Shown here piece after piece: positions 51,534-64,000 of a stretch of 64,000 bases of DNA. Source of the DNA: Agarophyton chilense (Eukaryota > Rhodophyta > Florideophyceae > Gracilariales > Gracilariaceae); the NCBI GenBank assembly GCA_030374765.1, contig JARGXX010000071.1, forward strand, positions 1,364,001-1,428,000. The letters run 5' to 3'. The stretch's first letter is position 1; each line of letters begins with the position of its first letter. Below the pieces are notes generated by a model. It saw nothing but the letters and a program-made list of their open reading frames with translations. It searched no databases and was not told the origin of the DNA. The translations under genes were made by a program, and so were the position numbers.

Positions 51534-51893
51534 AGGACAGAGCCTAATCTTCAATATCGAAAGTTTTTGAGGGCTTCAAAAATGAATTCTGGACAAAAAG
51601 AAAAACGCCTTCGATGGGCGAAACCTAATATCAGAAATGGTGACAATCATTGGGTTCAAGTGGTTTTCTCTGACAAGAAGAAGTTCAACCACCAGAATAA
51701 TGCATCAGTTCACACCTCAAATGTTACGCGTGAATGGCTAGTACAGAAACATATATCTGTTCTACCGTGGCCAGCGAAATCTCTTGATCTAAATATCATG
51801 GAGAATGTTTGGTGGGATATGGCTCGTAAAATGTACGCAGGATATAAACAGTTCGAACCAGTGTAAGAGCTGAAGGCTACTATGATAAAAGTT
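51534..51893 (+). mobile_element. Tc1/mariner transposase fragment, internally deleted
   Basis: Reads KRLRWAKPNIRNGDN, then HWVQVVFSDKKKFN (first catalytic Asp), and then jumps directly to NASVHTSNVTREWL and LPWPAKSLDLNIMENVWWDMAR (the D/E region). The normal middle between the first and second Asp is largely absent, and the second Asp (usual QDNA) is Asn here. A TAA precedes the last helix (ELKATMIKVWA). No terminal inverted repeats are visible. It is a dead remnant that sits exactly at the truncation of the 3' LTR. Confidence 0.8.
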
Positions 51894-54800
51894 TGGGCAG
51901 GTGCTCTATCGGTTCGTCTGAATCCCATTCGGGGCCGTACCCGTACCAACGGACCAAGTATTGGATATACCCCTTTGGGTTGTAGGAGTGCTCCAAAATG
52001 CGTCCTACCACGAACTCTTGTCGGTACACTCCCCGGCCATCCCGTATGACGGTGTCGCTATCTCCGGGTGGTACCCGTCCTGGGCCAGGGGGTACCGCAG
52101 TGATCACGCTTTGGGCGGCTTCGCTCCGGTCGGACCGTGTAGCGCGCAAGGCAGTCCTCGGCTGAGTAGAATGTAGACCCGACTTCGGCGGTTCATCTTC
52201 CGCAAGTGCTTGGTTTGCTTCGGCGATTCGTACTCCGGTTGGAGGGCCCACACCGGCGGGTAACCCGGGTGGTCGTTCCGCTAATCGGCGTGGTGAAGCT
52301 CGCTTCGGCGATGAGATTCGCTGGGGCGGTGGCGCATTGTCGCACCTCTCTGTCCCACGGCGAGGTTCCGTGTAGTCACGTGGGGGTTCCAATGGCTGGG
52401 TGTTCGGCGTCGGCGCCGTGGATGTATCCGCCTCCCTGTGCGGGGTACTTGGCGGTGCGTCGTCCACTCGTACTGTATCAGGCTGCAGTGCGTCGAGCGC
52501 ATTTGCATTCCGTGTGGCACGTGTGGTGACACCTCGGCGAGTGTCGGTGGCGTTATCCGCAGCTGCGTTCTGAGGCTTGTAGAGCGACTGCTTCGAGTCG
52601 TGCAGGACGTCGGTATCAGGCACCCCTGATGGGCGAAGAATGACACGTGACGGTGCAACGTTTCCAGCGACGGTATCGACCGGATTACGACGGCTGTCGG
52701 GCGCCTCGCTCTCCATAGACGATTCACCAGGGTTGGTGTCCGTCGGGTGGACTGGGGAGGAGCGACGGATGCGCGACACGATTCTTTGCGGGTTGGGCGT
52801 CGCGGGTATCTGAAGGTCAGACAAACCCCGAGATGGGTGTGGTAATGCGTAGGGACGCGGGTGGACCTGGGGTAAGGGGGTCGATGAATCCGTTTCAACG
52901 GGAGCAGTCACACCAGTAGGTTGGGATGTCAACGGCGGAGGAGCCGATACCACGCGATCGCGGGAGATGCGTTCGTGATTAACAGCGAGGTCAACAACGA
53001 CAGTGTCGGAAGTCACCGAAATAACCCGAGAGGGGCCGTCGGCAACGGGTGACAGCTTGTGGCGTTTCTCCTTCCCTGGGTTCCAATACTCCTTGCGGAT
53101 GAATACATAACCGTCGGGGGCGAAACGTGGCGGCGAGCGAGGGGCTTTGATATCAATTCACGCTTGTAAGTGGCCTGGGCTCGGACCATTGAACGCCGTG
53201 CAGCGAAAACGAGCTTCGTGAGCCAAGTTTTCCACGCTTCGCGGTAAGCAGTCGGTGACGGAAAGGTATCCAGCGTGGGCTGTGGTTCCAGCGCCACGGG
53301 CGGTGGGGTACGGGAAAGTACCAGGTCGAAGGGCGTTAATCCAGTTGTCATGTGCACCTGCGTATTGTACGCAAAGGTGAGCGCATCAATGAACAAGTCC
53401 CAATCTTTGGGGTGGTCGGCAACGTATGAAGGGAGTGTCGCAAGTAATGTCCGGTTGAACCGTTCGGCCTGCTCATTAGTTTGGGGGAGGTAAGTGGTCG
53501 TGAACAGGTTCTTAATGTCCAAGATGCGACACACATCCTCGAAGAAACGAGAAGCGACCTGTCTCCCGTTATCGGAGAGGAGGTTGACCGGTGGGCCGTA
53601 GACGAAGACCCAGTGTAGGACTAAGGCTTGAGCCACGCTCATAGCGGAGGTCTTCCATAACGGTACGGTCCGGACCAGCTTTGAGAAGCGATCCGTAATT
53701 ACGAGTAAGAACTTATAATTCCGCATAGTGGTAAGGAAGGGACCGAGTATATCGATGGCCACAAACTCCAATGGAGCGCGAGATGGAAACAACTTCAACT
53801 TCGTCGCATGACGGCCGAGTTTGACACGGTTTCGAGCGCATTCAGTACAAAACCGCACCGTTGCGTAGCAGTCCACTGCCATGGCAGGCCAGTAGAAGTT
53901 ATGGCGTAGGGTGAGGTAAAGTTTCCGTCCCCCGAGGTGGCCACTCAGTTTGGAGGAGTGCGACAACCGCAAGACTCTCGACTGGAGGTTATGTGGTACC
54001 ACGATTTGTGGGTGCGATCCGACGGTCCGTACAAGGTATCCGCCATCATTCACCTGAAAGGGGAGAGTACTTCCTCCATTGAGTTGAGCGCGGACCTTGG
54101 CGCAGAACGGGTCAGCGAATTGCTCCGGTATCATCTCCTCTGGAGTAAAAGGCACGAAGTTCCCTGGTAAGGGTTTCTCGGAATCTTCCGAGAGAAGAAT
54201 GTCGTCCAATTCGGAACCGTAATATGAAGAGTCCGTTTCTCGTTCCTCGTCCTCGATGGTAGCGTCGTCGCCATTCACTGCAAAGCAGGGTATTTCATCG
54301 TCTTTGACGGGTAGTGCCTCGCCAGTAGTGACCAGGTAGGAGAGAGCATCGGCTTGGGTGTTGCACGATCCTTTTCGGTACTGCACGTCAAAGTCAAACT
54401 CCGCTAGACGGAGACGCCAACGCATCAAGCGGCCTGAAGGCTCCGAGATGGAGAGTAGCCATCGAAGTGATGCGTGGTCCGTAAAAACGGTGAAATGATT
54501 ACCCATGAGATAGGGGCGCAACGCTTGTAATGCCCACACTACTACAAGGCATTCCTTCTCCGAGACGGAGTAATTTTTCTCGTGGACGTTTAGCGATCGG
54601 GATCAGTACCCTACGGGGCGTCATTTCCCATTGGGTGCAGTTTGAAACAGTGCACAACCTACTTGGTAGTCGCTGTCGTCCGTCTCTACAGTGAAGGGCC
54701 TTCCAGGCTTGGGCAACGAGAGGATCGGGGCGGAAACGACAGAATCCTTAAGAGAGTTGAAAGATTTTGTTTGAACGAGGGTTAAGGGGTCCAGTTTTGG

Positions 54801-55179
54801 TGTTTGGCCTTTCCGCAAAAGCGCGTTTAACGGTGCAGCCTTGTCCGTAAAGTGCGGGATGAATCGTCGGCAGACGTTCGCGAGTCCCAGAAAGGAACGA
54901 AGCTCAGTTTGCGTCCGCGGTTCTTTAGCCTCTTTGAGTGACTTAACACGAGTCTCTTCCATTGTAACACGTCCTGGACGGATAAAATGGGCGAGACACT
55001 TCATGGTGTCCGTGAAGAAGTCACATTTCTTCAACTTAAGAGGGACACCTGCATCTCGAAGCGTGGTCATTATATCCCTCACATGAGTGAGATGTTTGTC
55101 CAGATTATCTGAAAAGAAAACTATGTCATCCAGGTAGACCAGGCAGGTACGCCACGTCAGTGTTCTCGGAATGCTAGTT
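51880..55179 (-). pseudogene. pol fragment of gypsy element 2: RT (partial), RNase H, integrase, chromodomain
   Basis: Reading leftward from 55179: RT TWRTCLVYLDDIVFFS, LPKPGRPFTVETDDSDYQVG (RNase H start), then two TGA stops (54623-54621 and 54605-54603, the second where Trp is expected), then FTVFTDHASLRWLLSISEPS. The integrase shows LSGHLGGRKLYLTLRHNFYW with CTECARNR, and FVAIDILGP, LLSDNGRQ and QTNEQAERFN (DDE intact). A frame change near 53.15 kb leads to the linker WNPGKEKRHKLSPVADGPSR and a long Pro/Arg/Thr-rich region. The chromodomain is FVVGRILEHSYNPKGYIQYL followed by VRWYGYGPEWDSDEPIEHLP. Chromodomains direct integration to particular histone marks in chromoviruses. Confidence 0.85.
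51894..55179 (-). mobile_element. Second Ty3/gypsy element with chromodomain, minus strand, 5' part missing
   Basis: Only the part from the RT catalytic box to the chromodomain is present. No LTR is found at either side. The left end meets the Tc1/mariner fragment near 51.89 kb. The right end stops just upstream of the RT YLDD box, where the DNA-transposon segment begins at about 55.18 kb. It is related to element 1 in layout but clearly diverged in sequence. Confidence 0.85.
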
Positions 55180-55278
55180 CAGTGGTCAAAAAAGGACGAA
55201 TTGAATTGACCGAAAAACCCGTGAATCTATCCAAATTTGGAGGTGTTAATTTCCGAAAAAATTTTCATTCGTTCATTA

Positions 55279-55350
55279 GTGCTAGTTTGTATGGGAAGGA
55301 AAACTAGCACATATCTGCAGTTTTTCTAGTTTTGATGGAGGTAAAACTAG
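55279..55350. repeat. Paired subterminal hairpins sharing CTAGTTT arms
   Basis: GTGCTAGTTT (55279-55288) pairs perfectly with AAACTAGCAC (55301-55310). CTAGTTTT (55326-55333) pairs with AAAACTAG (55343-55350). A further GCTAGTT lies at the junction itself (55173-55179). Repeated short motifs near the ends are transposase-binding sites in CACTA-type elements. Confidence 0.65.
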
Positions 55351-55669
55351 CGTGAATCTTTCTGTCGCCGCAGTTTAAAGGTAAAAGTAGAGAAGTGGTG
55401 CAGGAGCAGATTCAATCTTTGTGCGCTCTAGATTGACAGATTAGTACAAACAACCGGTCCCAAAATGGACCTCAAAATAGAAATTGAACATTTAGTACCA
55501 TCCATATCAATCGCAATAGAATCGCAGCCCGACCTGGCAGACCTCACGTGCCTTGAATTCTATATTATTCTCCACCGCCCACCCCTGTCACGTGCCCTGT
55601 GTGCGCCATACTCTCTCTCCTTCTACGCCCCCTACCAACTTCTTTCCCACCACCTCTCCTCCACCCACC

Positions 55670-58600
55670 ATGCCTTCCTGCTGCTTCAACAGTTGCTCCT
55701 TCTTCGCCCGAGAAATCCCCGCCCTCCAGCGGCACCAGAGAAGGTGCCCTCATCGCCTCTCCACCAACAAGCGCTTCCTCTCCCCTGGCGGAAATGAACC
55801 CAACTTCCCCCCCCGCACAAAACGCCACAAGTCCACCTCACAACTCCCCCCTCATCCTCCTCCCTCACATCGCCCTTCCGACAACGTCCCTCTCGCACAC
55901 CATGACTCCTACCTCCAAGACCAGCTCTCTCTCTCCCTCCACACCCAGGACGCCATCCACGTCGCCACTGCCCCTCTCGGTTCCCCCTCCTCTCTCGCTC
56001 TCTCCCCCCTCCCTCCTTCCACTCCCCCCCTCGACAACCCCCACCTGGAGAAAATGGTCCTCTACATCTCCTTCATCGCCTCCAAGCTTGGACAACGAAA
56101 GGCTGACGAACTCATCACTCTCCTTAATGATCCCCACTTCTCCGAATCAACATTCCAGAACTCAGTCTCCTCCGCAAAGCAATGCCTCGAGCTCCAGGCA
56201 TACCTCTTCCACCAGAGAATCAGGTCCATTGGTTCCGCCCCCTCCACCATCTTCGATCCCCACAAACGCTTCTCCGCAACCCTCTTCCAGAAAGACGCAA
56301 TCCATGTCCTCAAACAACAGCTCGCCCTTGCACACTTCAAGAACACCTTTTTCCACCCCATCTCCCAAACATCCGCCTCCGGCTCCCCCGCCTTCGCACA
56401 CCCCATGGCGGCCACCCTCGGCTCAAAAGTCGTCCCCGCACTCAAGACCGCCATCATGCAGTCCACAAAAGATAACATCGTCTGGCATCTCCCTCACTCC
56501 ACCGGTATCGACTCCTTCATCGGCCTCGTCCAAATCTACTCCAACAAGTCCTCTACCTCTCTTAAATCTTCTTCCATCACCTCCTACCCCCTCCACATCA
56601 CCCTTCTCAACTTCTCCGACTCCTTTCGCCGCAAATGCATCTCCGACAATCTCACACTCCTCGGCTATCTTCTCACCTCCTTCAACCCAATCACTCCTTC
56701 TCCAGATGCAGATATCATCACTCATTCCTCCTCCATCCCCCGCCAAACAAAAATGGAACTCATACAGCAGACCATCTCCTCCCTCCTTCAACCTCTCTTC
56801 TCTTCCGCCCTCCCCGGTTTCCACTTCCGCGACGCAGACAGCGTTCTTCGTCAATGCCACCCCATCATCGCCAGCTACTGCGCAGACATTCCCGAGGCAA
56901 AGGATATTCTCGCCATCTCCCACGGCACCCGCCCCCAGAACCCGCCCCCAGCACCCCTGCCACAGATGCTCTGTCACTCGCTCACAACTCCACCAACACT
57001 CTCACGCCCATCCCCCTCGATCTCTTCCCCTCACCCTTGCAGCCCGCAACAAACACTTCTCCCTCCTCAAGGACTCCGAAGTAGCTCTCCTCGCCTGCAA
57101 GCCAAGAGTCTCGCGCAACTTCAAGGAACAAGCTCTCCAAGCACTCCACTCCCTCTCCCTCGCAAAATACCCCTCCCTCTTCGAGTCTTACCCCCTTTTC
57201 AACACCACCCCCCTCCTCACCCCATACAACATCTTCCCCTTCGAACCCCTCCACAACTTCCACCTCGGCGTTTTCAAACTCATCAAGGTCGCCGCCATCG
57301 AACGTCTCAGATCAGAACACCTCTTCACCACCATCAGCTCCACAAACTCCCGCCGTTCCTTCCACTCCGTCCGCACCTCCATCCTCAAGCACTCCAACTT
57401 CATCCTCACCGCCATCGAAAACATTCCCCAGCTACCGGCCTCCACATCGACTTCTCTACTTCCGAAAGCGGGCAGTCCCTCAACGGCTTCTTCACAACTG
57501 ACGGCGTCCGCGGCATGCTAGAAGCAAAATACTACCGCGCCCTCGACATGGTCTTCCCATTCATCGGCGCCTTCTTCGACCGCTGCTGTGACGAAGCCAA
57601 TTCCACTCCCATCACAACCTTCTTCTCCAAGTACACAGACCTCCTCCTCACCTCCATGTGCTACAACTCCGTCCCCGAATGGACCACTTCTCTTCTTGCC
57701 AAACTCGCCTCCCAAATCCATTCCTTCAAGCACAGAGCTGTCGATGTTCTCGGTCCATACCATACCTCCAACCTTGGCACCCTCAAATTCCACCTCCTCG
57801 ACCACATCGTAGACGACATTCGACGCTTTGGGGGTCTCCACTTCAACGATGCAGGCATCTTCGAACAAGCCCATACCCTCTTCAAAGCACATTACTCCCG
57901 AACCTCCAAGCGCAGACCCACCGCGCACAACGAAACTATCCGTGCCATCGAACGCTCCGATGCCGTCAACAATTGGATTTCTCTCTCCGCTGATCCTTCC
58001 GTCACCTCATCCTCCCATGCCCCTCCTCCTCCCTTCCAAGCCCGCAAACCAGGTTTCGTCCGTGATGGCAAGCACACCTCCTTTTCCGATCTCATCACCG
58101 CTCACAAATTCTTTCGAGCAAACCCCCACTCAACAATCTCTTCCCTTCAGGACCTCTTCTCCCCAGACACTATCGCCATCATCTCACAGATTGGAACCCT
58201 CGCACTCCCCTCCTTCGTCACACTCACACTCGAAACACTAGCTCTCAACCAGGACTCCCCCACTCTCCGCCAAACCCGTCTCACATTCGTCAATTCAGCA
58301 TACGTCGTCGGCGGCTTCACCCCAACCCTAGACGACTACATCGCCGATCGAAACGAGCTCGCCGTCAAAGATCCCCCTCTCCCACTCATTCAACGTATCT
58401 TTGCTGCTCCCTCCTTCGGTCCCTCTAAAACCCCAAAGTTCTCCCACATCCTCGTTGCCGGTTCCAACTTCTCCAACCCCACTCCCACCGCCTGGGTCTG
58501 CAAGCTCAACTCTCTTCTTCGCTTCACCACCCCTTCTTCCCCTTCCACTCATAACGAGTTCGCCTTCGTTCAGTTCCTCGAACTCGTTCCACCTCAGGAT

Positions 58601-58831
58601 CAAGTCGATGTCTCTCTCAATTGCATCTGCCTCCGATGGGCAACAGACGACGAACAAAACCACACCGCCCACGCCCTTCCTATCTCAAACACTTCCAACT
58701 CCGACAACGTCTCCCCCTGGTTCGGCCTCATACCATCCTCTTCCATTCTCGGCTTCGTTCATGTACTTCGCCAAAACTACCCCGCACCCCCCTTCACCCC
58801 TCGATTGCACTGGCGCTTCCATCGTTTTTAA
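55670..58831 (+). pseudogene. Plavaka/CACTA-like transposase, frame-disrupted
   Basis: The ATG at 55670 opens with a single C2H2-like finger (CCFNSCSFFAREIPALQRHQ, then RRC). A Pro/Ser-rich stretch and a helical region follow. The core is split between phases. A tandem 13-base duplication (56927-56939 and 56940-56952) shifts the frame just before PCHRCSV. The next phase contains the D/ExLHNFHLGVFKLIK motif (57247-57291). Near 57.43 kb the coding phase returns to the first one: HIDFSTSESGQSLNGFFTTD, GVRGMLEAKYYRALDMVFPF and KFHLLDHIVDDIRRFGGLHF, then EQAHTLFKAHYSRTSKRR. These blocks match the order seen in fungal Plavaka/KDZ-type transposases. The first phase happens to stay open throughout, giving a misleading uninterrupted frame of 1053 codons from this ATG. 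An unspliced intron is a less likely explanation. Confidence 0.7.
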
Positions 58832-59032
58832 CTCAACAGATTCTACCGAGACCCAACTGCCAAGCCCTACTTCTCCAACACCACCACTGGTGGCACAACA
58901 CCACCACTGGGTGGCACCCATAATAATACCTCCCGAGGCCCATGATCCAATAAAATAGTCACCGCTGCTTTTCTTCCATAGCCGACCCCCATCTTGCTCC
59001 ACCTCCTTACCCCCTTATCCCCCCGTACCTTA
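58832..59032. other. Short spacer between convergent transposon frames
   Basis: 200 bases. Contains CCACCACTGGTGG and a near copy (58883-58917) that could form small hairpins, plus AATAAA at 58950, a possible poly(A) signal for the transposase transcript. Confidence 0.4.
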
Positions 59033-61687
59033 TCACTCTCCCACTCCTTGCCTAATCCCCAACGCTAAGCGCTTGAACCGTGGTTCTTCTGGTCCACATG
59101 GCGCTATATAGCAATCTAACACCGCTCCAAGTCTTCTCGTGAGATTCTCCATGAAAAACTCCTCCCTTATCGCCAGATAGATTTTCTCTCTCGACGGTAT
59201 CCATAGCCCAACCGTCGCGATTCTCTCCTTATTCCCACTCACATCTCTACGATTCCCTCCACAGAATCCATCATTCTCAAACTCCTCAGCATACTCATCC
59301 TTCACCATGTTCCAGGCAACCCTCAATATGTCCTCAACAGCCAATCGCAGAAACCTCCCAAACAGCGTCGAGAACAAAAGTTGCCTTTGGCCTCCCCGCC
59401 CAAAGTCTCTATCCATCGTGGTCACCACAAATCCAATCCATGCATCAAGTCGCGCAAGATGCATCACCGTACCATCCACATACTGCCTTTCTCCATTTCT
59501 GTGACTTTCTACCGCGTAGCCCATAAACTCCTCCAACACTTTCAACGACACCTGATTTCGAAAATACATATCTGCCTCACCAAAGTCCTCCAAGTTCTGA
59601 GACACCTTCGATCCAGAATAAGTAATATCTTCAATCGCACTCGTTCTCCACGCACACAGCTTACCTCTCCCATCCTCCCCCGACCCCATCAACTTCTTTT
59701 GCGCCTCCTCAATCTGCTTCTTCAACTCCGCCCAAAGCTCCGTCCCTTCAGTCACCTTAGCTCGTTTCGCGATCAAATCATATCCAAGCATGGAAAACAG
59801 CTTATCACGCGCTGCTCGCTTCCGCACCCCAACCACATCGCTCAATGTCTGCTTCATCCTCTGTCTCAAGCACCTATCCGCACTTACATTTTCCACGCAC
59901 TCCTCTCTCCTCCCCGCTTCCCTTATCGACTCTCATTTCTCTCCCATTAACTCAGTCTCTACCACGTGCTTCAACAACAAATGGCTCCCGCCCTCTGTCG
60001 ACGGCGTATACGGTCTCATCTCATATGCAACCTCAATTGGACATCTCGGAACCATTTCCTTCTCTCCCACCACAAACATACTTTCCTCCCTACTCTCCCC
60101 AACCGCCTCACTTCTATTCTTCCAGCTTCGACCCACATTCTCGGGGTCGAAGCAAAGTTCCGATGCCTCCAGTTTTGCTTAATGAATAATCCTATCATAC
60201 ACACGACGTGCAAATCCATAAAAGCATTCCTGCACTCCAATGTCATACTTTCGTCGCCGCGTCACGCCTCCCTCCCCCCTCCCTTCCCCAGCGATTCTAC
60301 CTTTCAACGCCTCCCTCAAACTCTCAATCCGCACATTCTGCTGCTTCATTTCCTCCCTCGCCCGATCCAGCTCCGTTTGGGTCATTTTCAAACTCACCAT
60401 CACACTGTAGCTGTCTTCCTTCATACGTCCCATTTGTCTCTTCAACACATTCATCTTCTCAATTAGCATCGACCGCGGCAACAAACCTATGTCATCATCA
60501 TTTGCTTCATCTTCCACTATACGGACGGCGTTCTCCACGACATTTAAATTCGCATTCTCCCCGTTATCAATATTCCTTGTGAATACAATGTTTCTCCTTA
60601 CTCGCATACCTTCCGGCGTCCTTCGCCTTGCGTACACCTCAAACCCTTCAACTCCCAAACCCACCCCTCTCCTCGGTGGCAAACGCTCGACATCTTCTCA
60701 CTGATGAGAAAGAACTGCTGCTCTTCCATCGCCTCCCTCCCCTAAACCACGTGTTCTCCCTCCAGCAAACCCCCTTCTCCCCCCCTCCCTCACATGCACT
60801 TCTTTGCTTTCCCTTTCGTCTATCGCTCTTCTTCCTGTAACTCGAACACTCCCCATTCTTTCCCTTGCACGCTCTCTCCTTTCTTCCAAGTAATCCAAGT
60901 TCGCCCCCTCCCATCTTTCCGCCTGTTCCCCCGCGGTAACTCCAACACTCTCTCCTTCTGTTCTCTCTCGAACGACTCTTGCGCCCGCGATTAGACCACT
61001 ACTGGGTCCACCTATTCTACCCTCCCCACCACGGCTACTCTCTATTCTCCCTTTCTGTATCTCATCATCACCGTCCTCTTCCCTCATACCCGTAAACGAT
61101 GCCCCTGCTTCTTCAACGCCTCTGAGGCGGGATCCACGTTCTCCGATCATTCTCTCTCCCTCCTTACGCCCCTTCGTCCTCTCATTCGGAATCTCTTCAC
61201 CTCCTTCAGGTGCAGAGCATGGATTTACCGGCTCCACATCAGCTGAAGACGTGAGTACAGCACTTAGAGTCCGCTCGGATGCATCCCCTCTCCTTGTCCT
61301 CCCTGGAGCTCTGCTCGCCCTCCCCCGCAATCCACTTCTAGGTACACGCGTGGGGTTGCTTCGCACGCCATCCCGTTTTCCATCGCCGCTCCGCACCATC
61401 TCTCCCGTACGCGACGTGATTTGCTCCGTACGCGACGTGATTTGCTCCGCACTCTCCTCCGTCACCGTCTCCTTTGCGCGAACAGCCTTTCCTTTGCCCC
61501 CACTCGCCTCTCCTTCCCCACCATCTTGCCTTGATCTACCTCTCAGGCGCACGCCTCCCTTCTCTCCACTCGCGCCCTGGAGCCTACGCCCCTTGTCCCT
61601 TCCGCCCTCCGCATCCCCTCCATGCCGCCGGGATTTTGTACCGCGCCCGCTAGTGTTCTCGCTTCTCGATTTGCGCTTCGGAGCCAT
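59033..61687 (-). pseudogene. Unrecognised basic/coiled-coil transposon protein; one phase of 885 codons with three in-frame stops
   Basis: From the ATG at 61687 a single phase runs to 59033, broken only by TGA (60700-60698), TAA (60181-60179) and TGA (59935-59933). The N-terminal 300 residues are Arg/Gly/Glu-rich and probably disordered (MAPKRKSRSENTSGRGTKSR). A coiled-coil follows (SMLIEKMNVLKRQMGRMKED to MKQQNVRIESLREALKG), then an acidic linker. The folded-looking C-terminal domain of about 290 residues includes RKRAARDKLFSMLGYD, FGEADMYFRNQVSLKVLEEF and LFSTLFGRFLRLAVEDILRV. I do not recognise it. Lack of frameshifts over 2.6 kb suggests recent loss, stop-codon suppression, or splicing around the stops. 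Confidence 0.55.
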
Positions 61688-61990
61688 GGTTGAAGAGAGA
61701 GAGAGCGATCGTGGTATGATCTTCCACGCGTTGCAATGCGATGGATGGGAGAGAAGCTTCGAAACATTCTGCTTCTTCGTGTTCTCAGAAAACCCCCAAA
61801 CTTTTCAGATATTTTAAAAATGCGCTCGAACGCACCAGATATTGGAAAAGTATTCTCCTTCGGTGTACATGACTTTCTTTTAGCATATGTAGTACGTCAC
61901 GCTTTGACATTATATGTAGCGACAAACATAGTAAAAGCCCATAATATCTGGTACACTACAATGAAGTAAAGTAACAAAAGCGATGCACTT
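61688..61990. other. Spacer between the two minus-strand transposon frames
   Basis: 300 bases, AT-richer than both neighbours. It presumably holds the promoter of the basic coiled-coil gene and the 3' UTR of the methyltransferase-SET gene. No other signal is seen. Confidence 0.45.
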
Positions 61991-64000
61991 TTAATCGATT
62001 ACTATGACTGGCGTGTTATTCATACTCCAGATATACTCTGTCCCATAATCCGCGAACAGCTCCTCTCCTTTTTCTATATCTCGAATTGCTTGCACAGAAA
62101 GCAATCTATAGTCTCTCAACTGAAATGGGGTCCGCCCCGTCCCCGGAGTTCTGATGACCCGAACATTTGCAGTTCGGCGTCTCATTAACCCGTCTTCAAC
62201 CGCATCCCTCTCCCTATCCCCTTCCACATACTTAGGGTCGTTAATTGTTCCCCCCAAGCAAAATGGAGCAGGGACAATCCACACCGGAATAAGAGACACC
62301 CCACTAGTTCTTCCTGGTAGCTTGTGAAACACTTCCCCTCGGACGCTTATCTCCATCGCGTACTGCCAAAAACGATCAGCAGTCGCTTTCAATAGCCCCC
62401 CTCCGTATGCCTTATGAACTTCCTTCCGCTTTGAAAGATCATGGTACACCAAAGTCCCGTAAAAGTAACAAACAGTCTCACCTTGTATCACCCGGCGTGT
62501 TGTGTACACACCAACTACAGCATTTGCAATCCGACAACCACATACTGTCGCCTCCACTGCCAGAATAGCATTCCAATCCAACAGTGACATCTTTCCTTGA
62601 AAACTTCTTGGCCACTCATACAGCGCCTGCCGTCGCCCAATCTCCGATATATTCTTATCCTGCCTCATGGAGGAGAGAAAATCCACGATATGGGGTGGAA
62701 ACATCTGATGCTCGGGAAATCCGGTAGGTGTTTTCCAGGACTTCGAACGCTTTATGACGACGTCCGGAAACAAGCATGTCACTCGAGTCACAGCGTTCCG
62801 AAAATCTTGCGTTATATGAATGTCCGTCTCGTTGTTCCGCATGCATGACGCAAATTTCACTGTAGCGGCGTGCTTCGCATGAGCAAAGCACTGCGGATCT
62901 GGCTCACACCCTAGAAACTGACGGTGCTTTTCCAGTTCCATGCATGCCATGGCGGTTGAAAATGTTCCGGCGAAGAGGTCCACCACTATGTCTCCCGGCT
63001 GAGAAAACCTGCTGATGAGCTCCTTCAGCAAAGCGCGTGACTTCTATTCCGCCTGCACTTTTTGATCCGTAACTGCTCCTTTGGCATTCTTCCTTCTCCA
63101 TAGAAGTGTTTCACCATTCGACATGGGAGGCACTTGGTCAATCACGCTATGGTAACCCGGATATCGCGATGGTACATAGCTGAAGTTCTCATAGTTCACC
63201 ATGCCATGTTGTTCGGCGTAGGACAACCCGCTGCGAACTCCATGAATGGCGTACTCTGTTCCGGGAAACAGGGAGCACGAACTACGTCCGGGAGTACGCA
63301 TCGGATTGTCTTGAGAGCAAATGAAGTGCAGCTGGACCTTGTCCACGACAAATGACCTGCTCTTCTGTCCATTCTCATCCTTTGCACCAATTCGACCCAA
63401 CACTTCTTTCCATTCGTTCACCTGCTCAATCGCGCAGAATATAACGAAATGCCATCCCGGACGCAGAAGTTTAGAGATGAGCTTCGCCATCTTCACCATG
63501 TCTTGCTGGTTAAGAACGTCGTACCAGCTGTTTTTCCTGTTCTTCTTCGCACGTATATTATACGGCGGGTCCGTGAGAACCAACTGCACTTTCCCTATCG
63601 GAGAGACCCCATTGCTGCGCAATGTCTCGTCAATCTCGACCAGGTTCTCGAAAGTACAATTGTACATTCCGACAGTGCTTATCCATCTCCGACTCGCACT
63701 TTTGGAGAGACATTATATCATCCAGAGAGGTAAGGTCGTGAGGCGGCAGAATATCCACCGACTCAGATTCGACCGACCTTGGTCCAGCTGTGGAAGAATG
63801 CTGACCAACACCCATGTTCTCTTCCTCATTCCCGGTCCCACCCTCCACTGCCTCTCCACCCTCCACCGCCGGAGCCTCCGAATCTTTCTCAGGGGGTACA
63901 ACTTCTATCTCGTCTTCTTCCATAACCATAGTAGGTTCCGCCTTTGTCGCAGCCACCACTTCCACCTCCACACTCCCTCGCAGCTTTAATGGCGATATGT
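61991..64000 (-). pseudogene. DNA N6/N4 methyltransferase (beta class) fused to a SET domain, 5' end outside window
   Basis: Read leftward. An acidic N-terminal region is open to the right edge (EVEVVAATKAEP through DDIMSLQKCESEMD). It meets the methyltransferase in a different phase near 63.65 kb. Motif IV VQLVLTDPPYN (about 63580) precedes motif I IVVDLFAGTFSTAMACMELE (about 62980), the beta-class order of N4-cytosine and N6-adenine methyltransferases. A TAG (63046-63044) stands directly before KSRALLKELISRFSQPGDI, and the phase is otherwise unbroken. The last 190 residues form a SET domain: VVGVYTTRRVIQGETVCYFY, GGTINDPKY with ANVRV (in place of the usual NHSC), and SVQAIRDIEKGEELFADYGT followed by EYIW. 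It ends in TAA... at 61991. DPPY implies DNA amino-methylation; SET implies protein lysine methylation. Activity is unproven. Confidence 0.75.

Follow-up and report, generated by a model that had tools for sequence, protein, structure and literature searches.

Near one edge of a 64,000-nucleotide stretch of the Agarophyton chilense genome (hereafter the window), sequence for a DNA amino-methyltransferase runs into sequence for a SET domain, with a stop codon inside the methyltransferase part and a transposase gene nearby. We asked whether this is a genuine fusion protein encoded by a mobile element or an accidental apposition of decaying genes, and what such a protein might do for its carrier.

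The fusion gene in the window

The recognizable stretch of the fusion lies at 61,991–63,667 of the window on the minus strand and leads from a beta-class DNA amino-methyltransferase into a SET domain. Its first open reading frame (63,044–63,667, minus strand) contains LTDPPYNIR, with the DPPY of motif IV, and terminates at an in-frame TAG, while the second (61,991–63,031, minus strand; 346 unbroken codons) continues in the same frame with motif I (VDLFAGTFSTA) and ends its SET domain with GEELFADYG. An N6_N4_Mtase domain with DPPY ahead of motif I is what characterizes the beta class. In Pfam, the second frame (61,994–63,031) matched both N6_N4_Mtase (6.4e-9) and SET (5.8e-6) above the curated cut-offs, and the DPPY frame matched N6_N4_Mtase at 4.4e-4, under the cut-off.

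An earlier note on this DNA had described a single minus-strand phase interrupted only by the TAG. The stop and the shared frame of the two open reading frames stand, but the TAG is not the sole lesion, because the gene upstream of ∼63.65 kb runs on in another frame: residues 369–484 of the fusion gene are encoded at 63,651–63,998 (minus strand) in a frame that differs from the remainder, with 94.8% identity to an intact copy over 116 residues. Judged by its reading frames, the window copy is thus broken at least twice, by the TAG and by a frameshift, and the window end removes the first 368 of its 1043 residues.

Intact copies in two repeat families

Two light-harvesting proteins encoded in the genome have chains of PDB entries 7y5e and 9kc5 as their best matches; 7y5e is a red-algal complex, in keeping with a red-algal host. 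A six-frame search of the genome (79.8 Mb, 135 contigs) with the 346-residue window piece as query returned at least 119 matching rows. At least 65 of them, at ≥ 90% identity, represent at least 64 copies of what we call family A (one copy is split over two rows); at least 32 long rows, 42–44% identical to the window piece, make up family B; and at least 22 further rows were weaker or partial. Stop-free frames were found in at least 12 family-A rows (1036 or 1043 codons) and in at least 21 of the ≥ 32 family-B rows (1130 to 1220 codons). An intact family-A fusion matched N6_N4_Mtase (2.3e-18) and SET (5.9e-5) in a single frame, as did a family-B fusion protein (2.2e-16 and 1.3e-5, respectively). 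The two Pfam families that the earlier note had named were therefore recovered from the window frame and from an intact copy alike, and the single-frame joining that it had read from DPPY, motif I, and GEELFADYG holds uninterrupted in intact homologues, which do not carry the domains as separate genes. On this predicted architecture, the methyltransferase–SET fusion is real and not an artefact of the window.

That two genes lie side by side by chance, or that a host gene has broken down, is hardly credible as an explanation: the window copy itself is broken, as either would have it, but intact copies in two families, within repeats, refute both. Chance neighbours and debris are ruled out by the one-frame copies, and a host gene by the terminal repeat of the surrounding element, which lies ≤ 9 kb downstream in 52 of 64 family-A copies, counted among the 100 sites listed for that repeat.

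Four intact full-length family-A fusion genes are 0–2 substitutions apart in 3.1 kb, one of them without seven codons, and because they differ by so little, the family-A element has spread recently. Between families A and B, 158 of 306 residues are identical in the methyltransferase region, 92 of 219 in the SET region, and 111 of 419 in the N-terminal region. Within family B, a comparison of the copy on contig C10 with two copies on C21 gave pN/pS values of 0.31 and 0.42 for the methyltransferase and 0.23 and 0.20 for the SET domain (8–15 changes per class), and these ratios indicate that both domains evolve under constraint. We make this claim for family B alone, because family-A copies differ too little for such a comparison; the pN/pS values that could be computed there were 0.7–1.8, on few changes.

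A further, decayed lineage, ∼35% identical to the window piece, was seen at C68:3647941, C105:1199221, C128:250810, C71:762440, and C79:654979, with C95:188375 alike; the same three TAG stops recur in every copy.

The family-A element

The window part of the family-A transposon spans 55,155–64,000 (minus strand), with a terminal repeat at 55,155, and continues to the right past the window end. Sequence common to the window copy and those on C10, C105, C117, and C86 stops at 55,155; the terminal-repeat pattern is placed at C71:1419154, which is window position 55,154, and its first base varies between copies. Blocks of > 5 kb common to the C10 copy and those on C105, C117, and C86 are 98.6–99.7% identical, and those common to the C10 and window copies 97.7–97.8%. 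Measured from its termini, the full element is 18.0–18.8 kb long (∼18.8 kb on C10, ∼18.0 kb on C105). These two copies, read at both ends, have the termini CGTCTGTGTTCTC..GAGAACACTGACG and a 2-bp target duplication in each case, TA on C10 and TG on C105. The terminal pattern occurs at 105 sites in the genome, compared with 0 for the reversed control.

On the strand opposite to the fusion, the element carries a gene for a Plavaka-type transposase (PF18759; 1.4e-22 in an intact copy, 1.1e-14 in a window open reading frame), which in the window lies in pieces at 55,520–58,939 (plus strand) as judged from Pfam and comparison with an intact copy. Between it and the fusion are two minus-strand frames, delimited from the intact copy and matching no family: one of 583 codons (59,036–60,784), coiled-coil-like by eye, and one of 396 codons (60,637–61,804), charged and of low complexity. 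An intact family-A element contains the transposase gene, these two frames, the fusion, and a divergent frame of 1247 codons upstream of the fusion. Two further frames were noticed in the element (locus L009, 705–1460 and 2473–3297); they have no Pfam family, and the second is membrane-protein-like by eye.

Inverted ends and a target duplication within 2–3 bp agree with Plavaka elements, and in Pfam the transposase matched only Plavaka, with no sign of the Harbinger transposase of HarbingerS elements. The termini given for PlavakaA and PlavakaB in the available part of PMC12730594 (TGT..ACA or CATCA..TGATG) differ from those of this element (CGTCTGTG..CACTGACG), and we therefore file it under neither. 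By these features, the sequence in the window belongs to a decayed copy of an 18–19 kb DNA transposon with genes for a Plavaka-type transposase and the fusion. The intact fusions that the earlier note had hoped to find beside the same transposase do occur, in an element with that transposase and inverted ends, and its alternative of a host gene unrelated to the transposase falls away.

A Ty3-like retroelement adjoins the element end at 51,880–55,153 of the window (integrase at 53,013–54,539, chromodomain at 51,880–53,016). Because the flank at 55,153 reads by eye like a reverse transcriptase YLDD stretch, the family-A transposon may have jumped into this retroelement.

The family-B unit

In family B, the fusion, whose N-terminal region is related to that of family A, adjoins a long RecQ-like helicase frame of 1796 codons (locus L018, 4167–9554; also L020–L023), in tandem or near contig ends. 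The helicase matched DEAD and Helicase_C in Pfam, and its best PDB matches were RecQ and BLM. An array of 773-bp tandem units lies upstream; a profile search gave no more than a hint of a C2H2 zinc finger, and a stretch that looks tyrosine-recombinase-like by eye matched nothing in Pfam. The family-B units are mostly subtelomeric: of the ≥ 32 rows, at least 18 lie ≤ 25 kb from a contig end (15 judged by their start coordinates and 3 by the known length of the contig), and some are interior to contigs; C10 has two tandem units 12.0 kb apart. A search of the genome for four-fold TTAGGG or TTTAGGG telomere repeats found none, and the Plavaka gene is absent from the family-B stretches compared.

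Telomere-linked RecQ helicase repeats are a known kind of repeat. Family B resembles them in repeating a RecQ-like helicase gene close to contig ends, but unlike them it adds the fusion and a partner gene.

A divergent partner gene and intergenic palindromes

The divergent frame upstream of the fusion has a counterpart in both families (1247 codons in A; 1315 codons in B, locus L150), with 495 of 1179 residues identical (42%). That of the window copy lies beyond the window, at C71:1429698–1433435, and has two stops. Among 37 family-A partner loci scored out of 338 first-look candidates, 34 are upstream of and divergent from the fusion, and so are 13 of 16 family-B loci (≥ 91% identity), at 7.6–13.3 kb from it; the exceptions are on C37, C97, and C16 in family A and on C9, C63, and C31 in family B. 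The tandem family-B units on C10 have no partner between them, and on C25 a decayed partner copy sits downstream of the fusion.

Long palindromes are found between the partner and fusion genes in both families. There are six on C10 (arms 37–60, gap 2–3), five on C103 (arms 57–64, gap 29; one per 773-bp tandem unit), at least five on C86, four on C25, and one each on C105 and C71; a search of the 64-kb window at the same settings found none. The palindromes of the two families differ in sequence, and no common short motif stood out in their intergenic regions. Palindrome number between the divergent genes varies by copy (L009, 7351–8154; L022, 5221–8457), and the family-B distance between these genes shifts in steps near the 773-bp unit.

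Searches of Pfam, NCBIfam, PHROGs, and PDB gave no credible match to the partner protein, including no TET/JBP match in Pfam, and two structure predictions, the partner among them, had mean pLDDT values of 28.8 and 32.5. By eye, the motifs HTDF, FHAG, and RYH are kept between families A and B, and a stretch reading VILIDGHHR or CLLVDGLHR is ParB-like, so that to the eye the partner looks like a 2-oxoglutarate dioxygenase with a ParB-type stretch.

Predicted activities of the two domains

Among solved structures, the methyltransferase is closest to adenine enzymes (DpnA and CcrM), and DPPY is given for N6A enzymes, as against SPPY for N4C enzymes, in the available part of PMC8885841. Together, these favour adenine over cytosine as the predicted target. 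The bacterial and phage adenine methyltransferases (DpnA, CcrM, phrog_67) share the beta-class motif order and are the nearest sequence matches of the fusion; the loci found are ∼20–30% identical over the domain and, unlike the fusion, have no visible SET part.

With the fusion as query, none of the best 80 of at least 139 viral loci or of 30 prokaryotic loci matched the SET part, all matches falling within query residues 565–865, the methyltransferase region; with the SET part as query against viral DNA, 0 of 12 stretches were relatives. That the fusion came whole from a virus or a prokaryote was rejected on this basis, although these negatives are weak because the search patterns were short.

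Most SET domains have NHSC, the NHS motif, at a position where the window copy reads NDP, as the earlier note had rightly seen; family B has NDA, and all six aligned members from both families have IND at the NHS position. Pfam SET matched all six, the scores given above for the window, family-A, and family-B frames being weak and just above the cut-off, and the best solved matches of the SET profile are histone enzymes (SETD8/KMT5A at 1.4e-4). Because IND stands where NHS is usual, enzymatic activity is less sure, and we assign the domain to the SET fold by profile and not by activity. The same replacement in both families, and scores barely over the cut-off, would suit a SET part that is no longer an enzyme and serves as a binding module placing the DNA methyltransferase on chromatin. 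We consider this quite unlikely, since DYG, the catalytic-tyrosine motif, is kept in six of six aligned members and GxG in five, the window copy alone having lost its glycine, and since pN/pS in the SET domain is as low as 0.20–0.23.

Possible roles of the fusion

As a whole explanation we lean, tentatively and a little short of calling it probable, towards a Plavaka-type transposon whose fused DNA and lysine methyltransferases would relax host silencing on its own copies. The methyltransferase would put N6-methyladenine on the DNA of the element, the SET domain would methylate a lysine of nearby chromatin, and the fusion would be brought to the palindromes by its N-terminal region together with the partner protein, which may be a matching eraser or a DNA binder; between them, marks and targeting would allow the element's genes to stay expressible in the face of host silencing. 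Relaxation of silencing seems the likeliest role because 6mA in eukaryotes is associated with permissive chromatin (PMC12695648, partial text) and TET/JBP enzymes borne by transposons have been interpreted as anti-silencing (PMC12730594, partial text).

This explanation draws on the one-frame fusion in two families, the transposase, inverted ends, 2-bp duplication, and terminal repeats, the near-identical intact copies, the constraint in family B, the adenine-enzyme relatives and the SETD8/KMT5A match, and the divergent partner with intergenic palindromes in both families, none occurring in the 64-kb window. Against it stand IND in place of NHS, family-A comparisons that show no constraint, palindromes that share no motif between families and of which C105 and C71 retain one each, partner domains without profile support, and the fact that the same parts equally fit self-silencing.

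Self-silencing would have the fusion put repressive marks on its own copies, keeping both their number and the damage they do in check. It would amount to a self-sufficient version of the loop between a DNA mark and H3K9 proposed for bdelloid rotifers, in which, according to the available part of PMC8885841, transposons bear 4mC and a variant of SETDB1 prefers DNA with 4mC. We regard self-silencing as unlikely: dozens of copies, several of them near-identical and intact, are unlike tight self-limitation, and DPPY points to 6mA, the mark that accompanies permissive chromatin in the part of PMC12695648 available. A role in transposition control also has a rather small chance in our view. The DNA mark would then time or target the transposase at the element ends, or shield element DNA, and the SET domain would modify the element's own proteins instead of histones, in keeping with its departure from the usual NHS motif and with one element coding for both methyltransferase and transposase; yet in family B, over the stretches compared, this fusion comes with no Plavaka gene, and the best solved matches of the SET profile are histone enzymes.

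Beyond the relaxation of silencing that we favour for family A, a broader and more doubtful possibility is a portable epigenetic cassette, in which the fusion would write DNA and lysine marks, the divergent partner would read or erase them, and the palindromes would be the landing site, so that the Plavaka-type transposon and the subtelomeric RecQ-helicase unit might each build a chromatin state of their own.

Relation to known systems and significance

Transposons with single chromatin modifiers (TET/JBP or SET) and a bdelloid methyltransferase with a chromodomain are in print; a DNA amino-methyltransferase–SET fusion borne by a transposon, or the two-gene cassette, was not found in the open-access literature searched. 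TET/JBP genes ride on fungal DNA transposons, Plavaka included (Kojima 2025; PMC12730594, partial text). These and family A are both of the Plavaka kind, with 2–3 bp duplications and an added chromatin-modifying enzyme, but the fungal cargo is a 5mC eraser between other termini, whereas family A has a DNA amino-methyltransferase fused to SET in a red-algal host, and its partner protein, unlike the fungal cargo as described in that partial text, has no TET/JBP match in Pfam. SET genes are also reported there on HarbingerS and MuDR transposons of Phytophthora, which resemble family A in carrying such a gene but have another transposase, and the available part of PMC12730594 mentions no DNA methyltransferase fusion in them. 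The bdelloid N4CMT (PMC8885841, partial text), like the fusion, is a eukaryotic protein in which a bacterial-type N6_N4_Mtase is linked to a chromatin domain; it comes from one host gene and has SPPY and a reading chromodomain, whereas the fusion has DPPY, SET, no chromodomain among its Pfam matches, and many mobile-element copies.

The enzymes that transposons are known to bring along each change a single chromatin mark. With the fusion, common to two kinds of repeat and constrained in one, an element would be able to write on both chromatin layers at a single site. The fusion would also be a natural tool for asking if adenine methylation of DNA and methylation of lysines guide one another in eukaryotes.
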